Assembly (NCBI GenBank): GCA_020630875.1
Contig: JAHDIH010000002.1
Span: 495,332 to 559,331 of the forward strand
Reading direction: 5' to 3'
Length of the DNA: 64,000 nt
Source of the DNA: Deltaproteobacteria bacterium
GTDB lineage: Bacteria; Myxococcota_A; Polyangia; Haliangiales; Haliangiaceae
Part shown: piece after piece, positions 7,454-26,328 of the stretch
How the letters are laid out: each line of letters starts with the position of its first letter
How positions within the stretch are numbered: position 1 is the stretch's first letter
Made by a program: the position numbers and the translations under genes
The notes under the pieces: model-generated
Seen by the model: only the letters and a program-made list of their open reading frames with translations
What the model was told of the DNA's origin: nothing
The model's database searches: none

Positions 7454-9370
7454 ATGAAACTAGATCCAAGAGTACCTGAAGGCCCGATAGACCAAAAATG
7501 GACGAACGCAAAGTTCTCCATGAAACTGGTGAATCCGGCAAATAAACGTAAGTTCGATATCATCGTTGTTGGTTCTGGCCTTGCCGGCGGCTCCGCCGCG
7601 GCGACGCTCGCGGAGCTTGGCTACAATGTCGCTTGCTTCTGCTACCAAGACAGCCCCCGCCGCGCCCATAGCATCGCAGCGCAAGGTGGCATCAACGCCG
7701 CAAAGAACTACCAAAATGACGGAGATAGCGTCTACCGACTGTTCTACGATACGGTCAAAGGCGGTGACTTCCGTAGCCGTGAAGCCAACGTCTATCGACT
7801 GTCGCAAGTCAGCGTGGACATTATTGACCAAGCCGCGGCAATGGGAGTTCCTTTTGCTCGGGAGTATGGTGGTACGTTGACCAATCGATCGTTCGGTGGT
7901 GCGCAAGTGTCCCGTACGTTCTACGCACGTGGGCAAACAGGACAGCAGCTCCTGCTCGGGGTTTACGCCGCGTTATCTCGGCAAATCTCCGCGGGTAAAG
8001 TGAAGATGTTTACACGAACCGAAATGCTTGATTTGGTGACCGTCGATGGCAAAGCTGCTGGCATTGTGACGCGTGACATGGTCACAGGGAAAGTTGAGTC
8101 CCATGCCGCTCATGCTGTGGTACTGGCAAGTGGTGGTTACGGCAACGTATTCTACCTCTCAACTAACGCCATGGGATGCAACGTGACTGCTTCGTACCGC
8201 GCGTACAAAAAAGGCGCCGGTTTCGCCAATCCTTGCTACACGCAAATTCATCCGACTTGCATTCCCGTAAGCGGTTCCTATCAGTCGAAACTGACTTTGA
8301 TGAGTGAATCGCTAAGAAACGATGGCCGCGTATGGGTCCCCAAGAAAAAGGAAGACGTTGGTAAAGCACCAAACGACATTCCTGAGGCCGACCGGGATTA
8401 CTACTTAGAGGAAAAATACCCATCGTTTGGAAATCTTGTTCCTCGCGATGTGGCTTCACGAAACGCGAAGCTTGTATGTGATGAAGGGCGAGGCGTAGGC
8501 CCAGGCGGGCGCGGCGTGTATCTCGATTTCCGCGATGCCATCAAACGAATGGGGGAAGACCTTATTCGTGAACGCTACGGCAATCTTTTCCAAATGTACG
8601 AGAAAATTACCGATGAGAATCCGTACAAAGTGCCAATGAGAATTTATCCTGCGGTTCACTATACGATGGGTGGTCTGTGGGTCGATTACAACCTGCAGTC
8701 TTCCATTCCCGGTCTCTTTGTTCTTGGCGAAGCGAATTTCTCCGACCACGGTTCGAACCGTCTTGGTGCCAGTGCGCTAATGCAAGGTTTAGCAGATGGA
8801 TATTTTGTGATTCCGTACACACTCGGTCACTACTTGGCATCCGAACAACCGACCAAACATGAGACTTCACACAGCGAGTTTCAAAAGTCTCACAAGGAAG
8901 TGAACGACCGAGTAGAAAAACTACTGGCGATTGGCGGAGACAAAAGCGTTGACACGTACCACAGAGAGCTCGGACTCATCATGTGGGATTACTGTGGAAT
9001 GGCCCGCGAAGCGGAAGGTCTCAAGACAGCGATTAGCAAGATTCAGGAATTGCGAAAAGATTTTTGGAAAAACGTACGCGTTCTCGGCGAAAAAGACTCT
9101 TTCAATCAGTCGCTTGAGAAAGCAGGTCGGGTCGCTGACTTCCTAGAGTTTGGCGAACTTATGTGCCGAGATGCACTAGCGCGAGAAGAAAGTGCTGGCG
9201 GACATTTCAGGTTGGAGTATCAAACCCCTGAAGGCGAAGCCAAACGTGATGATGCAAACTTTGCCCATGCCGCAGTGTGGGAATACAAAGGCGATGATGT
9301 GGAGCCTGAGCTTCACAAAGAACCGATGGAGTTCGAATACGTCAAGCTAGCAACAAGGAGCTACAAGTAA
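7454..9370 (+). CDS. sdhA: succinate dehydrogenase / fumarate reductase flavoprotein subunit
   Basis: A 638-residue flavoprotein that oxidises succinate to fumarate at the membrane. The FAD-binding [17 protein letters not shown] motif is near residue 34. The covalent-FAD histidine lies in [14 protein letters not shown]. Substrate-site motifs are [38 protein letters not shown] and [41 protein letters not shown]. Length and motifs fit the long SdhA of the b558-type enzyme. The stop codon overlaps the sdhB start (TAATG), indicating translational coupling. Confidence 0.97.
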
Positions 9371-10119
9371 TGGACTTAACACTTAAAGTATGGCGACAAG
9401 GAAGTGAAAAGGCTAAAGGGTCTTTTCAAACGATCAAGGCGACAGGCATCAAACCAGAGATGTCCTTTTTGGAAATGCTTGACGTTGTAAATGAGCAACT
9501 CAATGGAAACTCGAAAGAGCCGGTGGCATTTGACAGTGATTGTCGTGAAGGAATCTGCGGCACGTGTTCCATGGTAATTAACGGTCGCCCGCATGGACCT
9601 GACGCGGGAACTACAGCGTGCCAATTGCATATGAGACGTTTCAAAGATGGTGATACCATTACCATTGAGCCGTGGCGCGCAGCCGCATTTCCTGTGCTCA
9701 AAGACTTGGTCGTCGACCGCCAAGCACTAGACGATATTATCGCTGCCGGCGGTTACATCAGCCAAAACTGCGGGTCAGCACCAGATGCCAACGCAATACC
9801 GGTGCCTAAAGAGAAAGCGGATAAAGCTTTTGAAGCAGCAACATGCATAGGATGTGGGGCTTGCGTAGCCGCCTGTCCGAATAGTGCAGCAATGCTATTT
9901 ACTGCTGCAAAGTTGACTCACTTGCATGAGCTTCCACAAGGTCAAGCAGAGAAACAAGAGCGTACGCTAAAGATGGTTGACGCTATGGATGCTGCCGGAT
10001 TTGGAAACTGCACCAACCTCTACGAGTGCGAGGCCGCCTGTCCGAAGAATATTGATCGCGAGGTTATTGCGAAGATGAATCGGGCGTACACCAAAGCCTC
10101 TCTCTTCAAACGAAAGTAA
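9370..10119 (+). CDS. sdhB: succinate dehydrogenase iron-sulfur subunit
   Basis: A 249-residue protein carrying electrons from FAD to the b hemes. The N-terminal ferredoxin domain has the [2Fe-2S] ligands in [14 protein letters not shown] and the later cysteine in [11 protein letters not shown]. The C-terminal helical domain has [15 protein letters not shown] for [4Fe-4S] and [15 protein letters not shown] for [3Fe-4S]. Its start overlaps the sdhA stop. The operon ends here; a structured repeat begins 8 nt after the stop codon and may shape the 3' end of the message. Confidence 0.97.
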
Positions 10120-10127
10120 GTAGTCTC

Positions 10128-10270
10128 GGTAGAATGTCCGGGCGCGGCGTTATGTGAGACCTCGTGACCAAGAGGTCACGTCGGTTCCTCGGATTTTCAT
10201 CCGAGCTGACAAGCCTTGCGCTCGAAGCATTCTACCTTCGCCAATGGGCTGGCTTGGATTTCATCCAAGC
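10128..10270 (+). ncRNA. structured intergenic element, copy A (candidate RNA motif)
   Basis: Four stems can be drawn. P1: GGTAGAATG (10128-10136) with CATTCTACC (10228-10236), enclosing the rest. P2: CGTGACC-AAGA-GGTCACG (10163-10180). P3: CTCGGAT-TTTC-ATCCGAG (10188-10205). P4, outside P1: GCTTGGAT-TTC-ATCCAAGC (10252-10270). Between stems lie blocks nearly identical to copy B at 25639: GGCGTTAYGYGAGACCTCG (from 10146), TCGGTT (10181) and CAAGCCTTGCG (10210). Stem bases differ from copy B but pairing is kept, which argues for a conserved structure. It may be a 3'UTR element, a small RNA or a palindromic repeat; orientation relative to sdhB is sense. Confidence 0.7.
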
Positions 10271-11016: not shown

Positions 11017-13494
11017 ATGGGCGCGAATCATCGAAATGTGGTCGTTGTAGGGGGCGGGACAGAGCTTACAGACGGTTTAGCAAAGTCGCTAGGGGACGAT
11101 TATCGTGTGTTCGCCGCCGGTGACATTGGATCTCTATCGGGTCACTTAGAACACAGCTGGCAAACTATTATTTCGGCTGCCGCGATTCCTGCCTTACGTC
11201 AAAAATTGGTTGAGTTAGGTCGGCTTGGAACGCCAGTTCTTGCGATTGTCTCTGGAAGACAAGCGCAGGACGAACTCGACGAAACGATGGTCGATTGCGA
11301 TGCGGTGGTAACCGATAAAGTTTCCATTCCAGACTTAACGATTTTGTGCAAACGACTTTGCGATCGCGCCACTTTGATGGTCGGAACCAGAGCCCACAAT
11401 GACGAACTCAACAGTCAGCTTGCTTCGGCGTCCCAAAAAGAGGGGAAGATCAGTAGGAAGCTAGAACGAGTTGAAAGAGAACTTATTGCTGCGTCTCATG
11501 AGCTCGAACGACTGAATCGAGAGCTTGAGCTTATGTCCTACAAAGACTCTCTTACCGGAATGTACAATCATCGCACGTTCCAAGAACGTCTCCGTGAAGA
11601 GGTGGCTCGTGCGCAACGTCACGAGCGTAGCTTTAGTTTGCTCTATGGAGATATCGATAACTTTTCGGTCGTGAATCGTTCTATGGGGTATCAGTTCGGT
11701 GATGAAGCTTTGCGAGTCATTGCAGGAGTCATTTCATCGATGGATTCGTCAGAGAGAGTTCGCGATTCAGATGTTGCCGCAAGATATGGTGGCGAGGAGG
11801 TAATGATATTACTTCCAGAGACCGACAAGCATGGCGCAACGATAAAAGCCCAGCGATTATGCGATACGATTGCAGAGACAAACTTTCCTGGCATTGACAA
11901 AATCACAATGAGTTTCGGGGTGGTTAACTTTCCCGAAGACGGCACTGATGCGGAAACGTTACTTGACGCTGCGGATCGTGCGCTTACCTTCGCCAAAGAG
12001 CGAGGACGTAATCAAGTCAGTACGGTTTCCGCTCCGCTGACCTCCGGCGTGATTGCGCAACCTGAAAGAATTCGTTCTTCGCACGAAAGAATGGCAGAAA
12101 TCGTTGGGATTTTGCGAAAAGATCGCGCGGTCACTTGTCTCTTGGTTGATCTAAGAAGACTTAGACGGGTCGAACACGAACTTGGCGCGGCACAATACGC
12201 TCAATTATTTGATCGTGCGGGGGTCGTTTTGGATGAAATGCGCGGCAATCAACTTCGAACCAATGATGTTATTTGTCGCATTAGTAACGATGACGCGTAT
12301 CTGTGCGTTCTGTCTCCATCTCGAGACCCAGATCCGACAAGAAGCTTTGACGTAACGTTAGTCGCAGAACGGGTGCATCGCACGGTAAATGCTGCACTAG
12401 CTAGAGAAACGCGAGAGCTGATTCGCGATGATCCTCGTATTACCGTAGGACACGCTCGTGTGTTGAACAACTCTATGATTCGTCCGGAGCGTTTGATAGC
12501 AAGACTCGTCGATGAAGCGAGGAGTTCTGCCGCGCTTGCTCGGGAACGAGAGGCTCAGCATAACAAAAGTCTTCTTCAAGAGCTCATCCTAACGAACAGT
12601 CTGCGTCCGGTATATCAGCCCATCGTTGACCTGCACGAGCTGCGAATCTTCTCTTTTGAGGCCTTAACCCGCGGTCCGAAACGTAGCTCACTTGAGTCGC
12701 CTGCCGCATTGTTCTCAGTAGCAGACGAAGTGGATTTGACTTTCGAACTTGACCGGGCATGTTTCAGAGGGGCACTTCGTGGCGCGGTTGGGCTTGAGTC
12801 CCAGCACAAACTTTTCGTCAACTTGCTCCCGCTATCCTTCTATGACTCTAGTTTCATTGAACACGAAGTCCATAGACTTTTAGAAGCTGCAGACCTGCGG
12901 CCGCACAACATTGTATTTGAGATCACAGAACGGCTGGCTATTGAAAACTTCGCGTCTTTCCGTCGTGCCTTGGCGAACTATACAGAACTAGGCTTTGGCG
13001 TTGCCATTGACGATGTGGGAACGCGTCACTCTAATCTGGAAACCGTAATGGCGTTACGGCCACATTTTATCAAGGTTAGTGACGTACTTGTTCGAGGGAT
13101 CGCGGAATCTCGGGTTCGTCGAGAGATGTTGCGCTCATTGCGGCATATTGCGGATGCCATTGATGCTGTGATTGTTGCGGAGGGAATAGAGACCGAAGCC
13201 GATCTGCAGGTGTTGATGGATCTTGGTATTCGGTTTGTTCAAGGTTACTTCTTGGGAAGGCCAGGGCCTCCATTTCCAACTGTTTCTCCAAGCGTATTGT
13301 CGCTTGTGGCAGAACTGGGTAAAGAGCGTCCCTTGATTACTCCTGCTTTAGCAGGTGGATTAGAAGACAATTACGAAGAGACCGATCCTGGACTGGGAGA
13401 TGACAATAGAGGTCGGATATGGACTCCGATTTCCGTACCTAGTCCTTCTGGAGAGACAAGTTTCATGCGCGAATTGCAAATTGACAACGAATAG
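11017..13494 (+). CDS. receiver-like / GGDEF / EAL c-di-GMP signalling protein
   Basis: An 825-residue cytoplasmic protein. The N-terminus (1-115) resembles a degenerate receiver domain. A coiled coil (about 130-175) leads into a GGDEF domain with DSLTGMYNH and the active-site loop RYGGEEV near residue 258 (usual GG[D/E]EF, here Phe to Val), plus an inhibitory I-site RDSD five residues before it. A spacer region leads to a C-terminal EAL domain from about residue 525: FEALTRGP, FVNLLP, FEITER, IDDVGTRHSNL and VAEGIETEAD. The usual KID after PD is KVS (PHFIKVSD), so a metal ligand may be missing and phosphodiesterase activity is doubtful. TATAAT ends 7 nt before ATG, indicating a leaderless message. 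The next gene is a pilus-retraction-type ATPase. Confidence 0.92.
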   Translation: MGANHRNVVVVGGGTELTDGLAKSLGDDYRVFAAGDIGSLSGHLEHSWQTIISAAAIPALRQKLVELGRLGTPVLAIVSGRQAQDELDETMVDCDAVVTDKVSIPDLTILCKRLCDRATLMVGTRAHNDELNSQLASASQKEGKISRKLERVERELIAASHELERLNRELELMSYKDSLTGMYNHRTFQERLREEVARAQRHERSFSLLYGDIDNFSVVNRSMGYQFGDEALRVIAGVISSMDSSERVRDSDVAARYGGEEVMILLPETDKHGATIKAQRLCDTIAETNFPGIDKITMSFGVVNFPEDGTDAETLLDAADRALTFAKERGRNQVSTVSAPLTSGVIAQPERIRSSHERMAEIVGILRKDRAVTCLLVDLRRLRRVEHELGAAQYAQLFDRAGVVLDEMRGNQLRTNDVICRISNDDAYLCVLSPSRDPDPTRSFDVTLVAERVHRTVNAALARETRELIRDDPRITVGHARVLNNSMIRPERLIARLVDEARSSAALAREREAQHNKSLLQELILTNSLRPVYQPIVDLHELRIFSFEALTRGPKRSSLESPAALFSVADEVDLTFELDRACFRGALRGAVGLESQHKLFVNLLPLSFYDSSFIEHEVHRLLEAADLRPHNIVFEITERLAIENFASFRRALANYTELGFGVAIDDVGTRHSNLETVMALRPHFIKVSDVLVRGIAESRVRREMLRSLRHIADAIDAVIVAEGIETEADLQVLMDLGIRFVQGYFLGRPGPPFPTVSPSVLSLVAELGKERPLITPALAGGLEDNYEETDPGLGDDNRGRIWTPISVPSPSGETSFMRELQIDNE

Positions 13495-24513: not shown

Positions 24514-25629
24514 ATGAGAGTAGTGCTGCTGACAATATTGATGAGTTTGGCTGTTACTTCTTGGGGCGAGTCGATAGCTGTGGTGGGACTCGATCCGGAA
24601 GGTGAAAACTTGACCGACGGCGATATGAAAACAGCGAAACGACTTACGCTAAAGATGCGTGACGCCGTAAAAGAAGGAGCGGTATCAGGGGAACTTTCTG
24701 AGCGTGGCGGTCGTGACTTATTCGAGCTAAAACTTTTGTACGATTGCTCTTTTGTAGAGCCCAATTGCCTCAAGAAAGTCGGAAAGAACCTCGGAGCGGA
24801 AAAGCTGGTATACGGCACCGTAAAGATGGAAATGAGTACGGTCTTTCTGTCGCTTTTCTTGTTCGATGTGGCTGAAGGCAGGTACGTGAAGTCATTTACA
24901 GAGAGAGTTCCGCGGGCGGATCTCGACGCCAGTTATGGGAAGAAACTGATGCGAAGGCTCTTTGGAGTTCCGAATACAGGTATTGTGGAAATAGCAGTTG
25001 AAGACGTTCCCCGTGGTGCTCAAGTGTTGGTAGATGGTACGGCCGTACCGCAAGTGAGCCAAAACAGAGTGGAGTTACCCGTGGGAACCAGCATTGTGGA
25101 AATTCGTTCCAAAGACGGGCGACGGTTTCAAAAGCAAGTGGTGGTGAAAGAGGGAAGTGTCGCGATGCTTTCTGGAGAGTTTCCATCTTCCAAGAAGGCT
25201 AAGCGTGACACCAACAAAGTACTTTTTTGGACCGCCGTGGCCGCAACCGGTGCCAGTGGTATTGCAGCTACAATCTACGGGACTCGCGTACAAGGCTTCG
25301 AACGAGACAAAGAAAAGGCATTGACGTCTCTCGCCGGAGATGGAGTCTTTATCAACAACAACGACGTCTGTGCTGGAGCCAAAGGTTTGTCAGGTCGCAG
25401 CGAGTACGCTCAAATCAACACTGCGTGCAGCAAGGGACAACGTAGTGCCAAGGCGACGAACGTGCTCCTTGGTGTGACGGCCGCCACCACCGCTGCCGCC
25501 GGATACTTTTTCTACAAAGCTTACGTTGCAAAGAAAAAGGGCACTAGCGATGTGGCACCTCCTGCAGTCACTGTGGTTCCGAGTATTGGCAAAGATAGTT
25601 TGGGTGCCGGTCTTACCATCGAATTCTAG
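24514..25629 (+). CDS. periplasmic PEGA-domain protein
   Basis: A 371-residue protein with a signal peptide (MRVVLLTILMSLAVTSWG/ES). Residues 20-150 form an alpha/beta domain resembling the penicillin-binding-activator/TolB-like N-terminal fold seen in deltaproteobacterial PEGA proteins ('CSFVEPNCLKKVGKNLGAEKLVYGTV'). A PEGA-like repeat follows (about 155-225: VEIAVEDVPRGAQVLVDGTAV). Then come two hydrophobic segments around residues 240-255 and 315-330. TAGGGT ends 6 nt before ATG. A structured repeat begins 9 nt after the stop. Confidence 0.7.
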   Translation: MRVVLLTILMSLAVTSWGESIAVVGLDPEGENLTDGDMKTAKRLTLKMRDAVKEGAVSGELSERGGRDLFELKLLYDCSFVEPNCLKKVGKNLGAEKLVYGTVKMEMSTVFLSLFLFDVAEGRYVKSFTERVPRADLDASYGKKLMRRLFGVPNTGIVEIAVEDVPRGAQVLVDGTAVPQVSQNRVELPVGTSIVEIRSKDGRRFQKQVVVKEGSVAMLSGEFPSSKKAKRDTNKVLFWTAVAATGASGIAATIYGTRVQGFERDKEKALTSLAGDGVFINNNDVCAGAKGLSGRSEYAQINTACSKGQRSAKATNVLLGVTAATTAAAGYFFYKAYVAKKKGTSDVAPPAVTVVPSIGKDSLGAGLTIEF

Positions 25630-25638
25630 ATCTCGCTC

Positions 25639-25777
25639 GCTAGGATAGTTCATTCGTGGCGTTACGCGAGACCTCGTGGACATTAGTCCACGTCGGTTGA
25701 CTTGGATTTTCATCCAAGCTCGCAAGCCTTGCGACTGATTATCCTAGCTTCGCTAGGGCTTGGATTTCCATCCAAGC
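25639..25777 (+). ncRNA. structured intergenic element, copy B (candidate RNA motif)
   Basis: Same architecture as the element at 10128. P1: GCTAGGATA (25639-25647) with TATCCTAGC (25740-25748). P2: CGTGGAC-ATTA-GTCCACG (25675-25692). P3: CTTGGAT-TTTC-ATCCAAG (25701-25718). P4: GCTTGGAT-TTCC-ATCCAAGC (25758-25777). Conserved junctions start at 25658 (GGCGTTACGCGAGACCTCG), 25693 (TCGGTT) and 25723 (CAAGCCTTGCG). Relative to copy A, P1 shows three compensated pairs, P2 two and P3 one. Here a second hairpin CCTAG-CTTCG-CTAGG (25743-25757) could compete with P1. It lies between two convergent genes, sense to the PEGA gene. Confidence 0.7.
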
Positions 25778-25780
25778 TGG

Positions 25781-25848
25781 TCACTCGTGGGAGTCCAGTC
25801 GGTCGCCTTGGATTTTCACCAAAGGATTGAACATCCTAGCTTCGCGCT
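25781..25848 (+). repeat. degenerate partial repeat of the structured element
   Basis: Directly after copy B, the order ACTCGTG, TCGGT, CTTGGATTTTCA, ATCCTAGCTTCG recurs with losses. P2 and P3 are degraded and the P1 5' strand is missing, while the P1 3' strand ATCCTAGC is present again at 25833-25840. It could therefore pair with GCTAGGAT at 25639-25646 in place of the nearer partner. It looks like an eroded tandem unit. Confidence 0.5.
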
Positions 25849-25854
25849 AAAGGT

Positions 25855-26328
25855 CTACGTGCATTCAAGTCCCGGTTGTCCGGATAAAGTAAGTTTGAGC
25901 AAGTGCGTCCTTGGTGGTTCGAACTCTGGTCCACCAGGGGTTGTCATTGTAGCCCCACCTGCTACGAAATATTCAAGTACCAAAGTGATCTGTCCAGAAA
26001 GCGGAGTTATTACTGGTCTTTGTCCGTCTACCTTAGCGTTCACTGAGGTTGGTACTTTGCCAACAACTCTATTTAGCTTTAAGAATCCTGGTAAAACAGT
26101 GTACGGTGGCGCTATGTAAGCAGGCGCCGCTATTTGGCTAAGCGTTGTAGAAATATTACTCGGAGAGAAATCATTTTCGAGTGCAGCCCGCATACCATCT
26201 TTTTGCTTAAGAATTGCTGGCGCTTTGGGTGGAAGAGTTAGCGTTCCACCAGGAATTAGCGGAAATGCAACTCCGGGTGTCAGGGTTGTCAGGGTGTACG
26301 GCGCACCGTTGAGGATTAAGAGACCCAT
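25855..26328 (-). CDS. hypothetical protein, Pro/Thr-rich
   Basis: A 157-residue protein with no signal peptide or obvious membrane helix. It is rich in Pro, Thr and Leu (TLTTLTPGVAFPLIPGGTLTLPPKAP; LVLEYFVAGGATMTTPGGPEFEPP) and probably all-beta. I recognise no family; the style is reminiscent of small structural or phage-like proteins but nothing nearby supports that. TATGAT ends exactly 6 nt before ATG, which supports expression. The 3' end abuts the degenerate repeat. Confidence 0.5.
   Translation of the reverse strand: MGLLILNGAPYTLTTLTPGVAFPLIPGGTLTLPPKAPAILKQKDGMRAALENDFSPSNISTTLSQIAAPAYIAPPYTVLPGFLKLNRVVGKVPTSVNAKVDGQRPVITPLSGQITLVLEYFVAGGATMTTPGGPEFEPPRTHLLKLTLSGQPGLECT

Follow-up and report, generated by a model that had tools for sequence, protein, structure and literature searches.

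Two competing folds in one copy of a dispersed palindromic repeat: a probable by-product of tandem duplication

Does a short intergenic sequence that can fold in two mutually exclusive ways act as an RNA switch, or is its second fold left over from the decay of a repeat? The question is raised by copy B of a structured motif, lying around positions 25,639 to 25,848 of the window analysed here, a stretch of 64,000 nucleotides from a Haliangiaceae genome. A preliminary description of this locus had offered both readings. The sequences on which it relied are where it had placed them: the 5' strand of the outermost stem, P1 (GCTAGGAT), begins at 25639, nine nucleotides after the TAG at 25627-25629; the 3' strand ATCCTAGC occurs twice, at 25741-25748 and 25833-25840; and the string CCTAG-CTTCG-CTAGG is found at 25743-25757. 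The degraded extra unit reported downstream is also real, since a local alignment of 25784-25845 to 25673-25753 scores 33, whereas the best of 2000 shuffles reached 19.5. The features of copy B and its neighbours are as follows.

24514..25629, + strand: upstream ORF of 371 aa without a Pfam match, the stop codon adjoining the repeat
25627-25629: stop codon TAG, 9 nt before the P1 5' strand
25629..25754, + strand: copy B core with conserved flanks TCGCTCG ... CTTCGCT; covariance-model match of 122.9 bits, E 6.5e-32, copy B being one of the 10 sequences used in building the model
25639..25647, + strand: P1 5' strand GCTAGGATA, perfect complement of 25740-25748
25650..25657, + strand: P2 5' strand, pairing with about 25731-25738 across a conserved TT bulge at 25729-25730 (fold and covariation)
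25658..25664, + strand: GGC stem, pairing with GCC at 25726-25728, and conserved GTTA internal loop
25666..25670, + strand: P3 5' strand GCGAG, partner CTCGC at 25719-25723; 80% of cells paired
25671..25697, + strand: P4 arm ACC-TC-GTGGAC-ATTA-GTCCAC-GTC-GGT; 97-98% of cells paired, 8 of 9 pairs changing on both sides
25701..25718, + strand: P5 hairpin CTTGGAT-TTTC-ATCCAAG; 96% of cells paired, all 5 modelled pairs covarying
25740..25748, + strand: P1 3' strand, the local partner (complementarity, covariation and fold)
25743..25757, + strand: competing hairpin CCTAG-CTTCG-CTAGG (6 bp with the C-G of the loop included); copy B only
25758..25777, + strand: SL2 hairpin (GCTTGGAT-TTCC-ATCCAAGC), 3' of copy B
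25784..25845, + strand: decayed partial tandem duplication of 25673-25753, with P4, P5 and the P1 3' strand present and CTCGCAAGCCTTGC missing
25833..25840, + strand: second P1 3' strand ATCCTAGC; in the long fold its distal pairing reaches 0.97-1.0
25855..26328, - strand: convergent ORF of 157 aa without a Pfam match; it ends just beyond the decayed unit

Taken as a whole, the fold comprises a long imperfect stem (P1/P2) followed by a three-way junction with two hairpin arms. The stretch 25630-25855 folds at -94.9 kcal/mol (z = -5.8 relative to shuffles), and its opposite strand reaches z = -7.9, as expected because the sequence is a palindrome. The host genome (G000, 4.07 Mb) was searched at the DNA level for diverged copies, ten of which were aligned, tested for covariation and built into a covariance model. 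With this model 21 full-length copies of about 125 bp each were found dispersed between genes, a count that leaves out a match at C7:29048, which scores the same as the copy on C13 and looks like an assembly duplicate. The flanks of C13:118905 and C7:29048 are near-identical as well, and integrase matches on contigs C6 and C9 coincide; together the two pairs suggest duplicated sequence in this assembly, for which contamination is listed as 6.1%. The motif had first been described as occurring in two copies. Both are real, but they belong to a dispersed family with more than two members. The features of copy A are these.

9370..10119, + strand: sdhB-like gene for an iron-sulphur subunit (Fer2_3/Fer4), immediately upstream of copy A
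10118..10242, + strand: copy A core, 121.7 bits, E 1.4e-31, its sequence also being among those that built the covariance model
10252..10270, + strand: SL2 hairpin of copy A

Copy A begins about 9 nt past the sdhB-like stop, and downstream of it, at 11017-13494 of the window, lies a gene for a GGDEF-EAL protein. When the 21 copies are aligned to the covariance model's own structure, standard pairs occupy 89.9% of pair cells (shuffle mean 72.9%; 31-38% with one strand slid), both sides have changed in 124 pair cells compared with 33 in shuffles, and 29 of the 39 pairs contain such changes. An independent MAFFT alignment of ten copies agrees (91.0% standard, 17 pairs with both-side changes). Because pairing and both-side changes exceed those of shuffles, and are lost on sliding a strand, the structure of copy B is not a product of chance; with pairing kept in about 90% of cells across the family, it is the genuine structured element that it had been taken for. 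Across copies, each of the four outer P1 pairs has changed on both sides, and no position of the GTTA loop is conserved in fewer than 19 of 21 copies; the TT bulge, GTC and the flanking CGCTCG and CTTCGCT are among the other unpaired letters that change slowly. Of the helices P3 is the least certain, as several copies read GCTCG and others GCGAG. The sequence 3' of the core is modular. Tandem units there vary in kind from copy to copy, with SL2 or partial tandem units in copy B, L066, L070, L061, L063 and the copies of a tRNA array described below, and a hairpin 3' of the core is frequent among other copies too.

The alternative pairings in copy B depend on how much of this 3' sequence is included. 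When 25630-25760 is folded, local P1 forms with a probability of about 1 and the competing hairpin with one of 0. In the fold of 25630-25855 the distal P1 and the competing hairpin each reach 0.97-1.0 and local P1 falls to 0, the combination of distal P1 with the CCTAG-CTTCG-CTAGG hairpin being better than local P1 by 4.7 kcal/mol. The mutually exclusive pairings proposed for this copy are thus thermodynamically real in silico. As an RNA switch, copy B would let the P1 5' strand pair with either its local or its distal 3' partner, the distal choice freeing the CCTAG/CTAGG hairpin and so controlling transcription or stability; its two states exclude one another, lie 4-5 kcal/mol apart at most, and exchange as the favoured state once 25761-25855 is added. 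Like riboswitch-like RNAs, the element has a branched conserved fold, along with the exclusive pairings of copy B; unlike them, it follows stop codons, and its alternative pairing is not conserved. The tight 6-bp hairpin is present in one of 21 copies, copy B itself, the runner-up being a single copy with a 5-bp stem and a 13-nt loop. Two of 21 copies, B and L063, have a further P1 3' strand shortly downstream, and that of L063 comes with its own tandem units. Mutually exclusive pairings conserved across the 21 copies, as expected of a riboswitch or other RNA switch, were therefore not found. Because the other copies lack the competing hairpin and, L063 excepted, the second P1 strand, the switch-like arrangement is accidental by the refuting condition that the preliminary description had itself set. 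Copy B also sits between two convergent gene ends and not in a leader, and within the window Rfam gave no match at gathering score; a relaxed search (E up to 10) returned nothing relevant, the only convincing match being a tRNA near one copy. Copy B is probably not an RNA switch, and switching of the kind just outlined is highly improbable. Of the two original readings it is repeat decay that the comparison supports.

Placement of the copies raises a further possibility: they may be 3' elements that were domesticated as bidirectional terminators or mRNA stabilisers and kept for the work they do at gene ends when in sense. Each of the 14 copies that lie outside the tRNA array has the sense orientation and is flush to a stop codon, with a 5' end between 15 nt inside and 9 nt past the end of a same-strand ORF. 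In two copies at L059 the stop TAG lies inside P1, one of these belonging to a full-length ndk (nucleoside diphosphate kinase) gene. The fold is highly stable, and the genes upstream are often housekeeping genes (sdhB-like, ndk, relA/spoT; in a related genome, G012, rpsI-like and pilT-like). Against such a role, most copies carry no U-tract after the hairpin on the element's own strand, six array copies are antisense to tRNAs, and there are only 21 copies in 4 Mb. Nor do the helices show a clear RNA-strand bias when G-U cells are counted against A-C cells (18 vs 25, or 18 vs 13 without one constant mismatch), though this is a weak test with a tRNA control too small for comparison. Retention for a function at gene ends is unlikely.

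The remaining seven of the 21 copies are found within an array of 19 tRNAs, most of them flush with tRNA ends: one lies after tRNA-Pro, five adjoin the 5' ends of tRNAs on the other strand, and next to the seventh no tRNA was detected. The array (L058:8410-16386, contig C9) holds, besides its tRNA genes and repeat copies, several short hairpin tandem repeats GTCGCG-CGCGAC, and near 10087-10165 an unlisted tRNA-like stretch. The clustered copies and the string 'GCGTTA' had prompted consideration of integron attC sites; the cluster is a tRNA array, not a set of gene cassettes, and the conserved outer AAC/GTT boxes of attC were not seen on inspection. Six tyrosine recombinases are encoded in this genome, and the one that was read looks XerC/D-like.

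Judged by GC skew, the G-rich strand, which is probably the leading strand, carries 20 of the 21 copies. The array copies form two local clades and so are not independent; the independent evidence is that of the 14 copies outside the array, all on the G-rich strand (p ~3e-4, given that 56% of genes lie there). Fixed sense and G-rich-strand orientation in G000 are unexplained by simple parasitic insertion, and they are absent in the sister genus, G001. They would follow if a single-strand DNA element, resembling IS200/IS605 or REP elements in function, inserted in concert with the replication fork, an idea that covers the antisense array copies as well as the 14 others. The dependence among array copies weakens it, as does the mixed orientation of the G001 copies, which carry classical inverted repeats. 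Moreover, no Y1 transposase (PF01797) was found in G000, G001, G009 or G012, where positive controls matched. REP/BIME sequences mobilised with RAYT (Y1) resemble the present family as intergenic palindromes at gene ends; the family here is longer and branched, and a REP/RAYT system was rejected with no IS200/REP Y1 transposase in the genomes tested. Insertion tied to the fork in this way is quite unlikely. A retroelement or retron RNA was also set aside, as reverse transcriptase (PF00078) is absent from G000.

Relatives of the family occur beyond the host genome. In G012, which belongs to another genus of the same family, the covariance model gives a match at E 3.4e-5, plus two weaker ones. 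Two G012 copies end in TAGAGC...GCTCTA and follow ORFs read as pilT-like and rpsI-like; five tandem TAG triplets lie between the pilT-like stop and the element (L051, about 1622-1640). From G012 a DNA search leads to homologous sequence in G001 (E ~1e-16), in which the terminal sequence CTAGTGCGYGATYCA has 386 matches compared with six for a reversed control pattern. The G001 element, which is very abundant, mostly measures 182-183 bp end to end; it has inverted repeats, each end bears CTAG, and some neighbours have a single CTAG in common. Either end of it may meet a gene, and its orientation to local skew is mixed. At least two subfamilies with CTAG-TGCGYGATYCA inverted repeats are seen (e.g., C176:9640-9964 and C181:9147-9427). 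Terminal inverted repeats are clear in G001 (CTAGTGCGYGATYCA at both ends) and short in G012 (TAGAGC/GCTCTA), and by reading they are present in G174, from another family of the class; none are evident beyond P1 in the G000 copies. G174 has two copies in which a GCGGCGTT...GCCTTGCG core lies inside different inverted repeats (AGAGCCGATCTCAATACC around the core at L211:1501-1607 and L209:25-131), a likeness that, among 290 genomes searched, is suggestive of kinship with the G000 family. A pattern scan of named genomes gave two matches, which the covariance model did not confirm, and one of viral contigs gave none.

These observations point to an origin as a mobile repeat. Copy B is most probably a diverged member of a family of short, palindromic, non-coding interspersed repeats of MITE/BOX-like character, which most resembles a non-autonomous mobile element, and its alternative fold a by-product of tandem duplication. 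This reading is favoured because 21 copies with strong covariation occur in 4.07 Mb, because of their position at gene ends and the relatives in G012 and G001, and because of the parallel with BOX. As in MITEs, a short non-coding element is present in many dispersed copies (21 in G000 and, in G001, 386 end-sequence matches). RUP and other MITEs linked to IS630/Tc1-mariner, which insert at TA, share with the 183-bp G001 element its inverted repeats and TA-centred CTAG ends, whereas the G000 copies lack clear inverted repeats. The nearest described kind, likened to the G000 family by architecture and not by sequence, are the BOX elements of pneumococcus, which are modular, folded and interspersed, carry tandem boxB units, often supply the stop codon at a gene's extreme 3' end, and are thought to be MITE-like (PMC3049150). 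Short non-coding repeats with tandem internal modules, a stable hairpin fold and a place at gene 3' ends or stop codons are common to both. The fold here differs in its three-way junction with conserved loops, and in its 20 of 21 copies on the G-rich strand, compared with about 61% of BOX elements on the leading strand (PMC3049150).

The element would have spread by insertion of DNA beside gene ends, presumably by transposition, with repeated tandem duplication on its 3' side thereafter. In copy B one partial duplication would have left the second P1 3' strand, and the competing hairpin would have arisen from chance sequence after CTTCGC. Transcribed with the upstream gene, the element may form at most an ordinary stable 3'-UTR hairpin. 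Insertion may have been catalysed in trans at the TA within CTAG/TAG by an IS630/Tc1-type transposase, the candidate mobiliser being an IS630/Tc1 or IS5-type DDE enzyme acting on ends like GTGCGYGATYCA. The title of Tenzen and Ohtsubo (1991), as cited in PMC2170065, refers to a CTAG preference of IS630. Adjoining stops are TAG in 10 of 14 cases by hand count, versus 41% in a genome sample; this enrichment is modest, which counts against the mobile-repeat explanation, and CTAG targeting was not retained as a full account of the stop-codon position in G000. No empty insertion site was seen, and end-to-end spacings in the G001 stretches examined, mainly units of 179-183 bp, revealed no clear autonomous element; both points, like the lack of clear inverted repeats in the G000 copies and their one-sided orientation, also weigh against that explanation. 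So does the shortness of intergenic gaps in this genome (median 7 nt between convergent genes and 32.5 nt between genes in the same direction), which makes the flush position at gene ends partly to be expected. A three-way-junction DNA element with the core GCGGCGTT ... GCCTTGCG common to families of the class, differing outer inverted repeats and one orientation of insertion relative to replication might instead reflect an undescribed structure-specific route of mobilisation, which is a rather improbable proposal.

For copy B the outcome is a plain one: it stems from a repeat family that shows local tandem decay. More broadly, a convincing alternative RNA fold, here with z near -6 and bistability in silico, can come from duplication within a palindromic repeat. 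Should sister species show the strand orientation seen in this genome, the family would make it simple to test whether small structured elements insert in step with replication.
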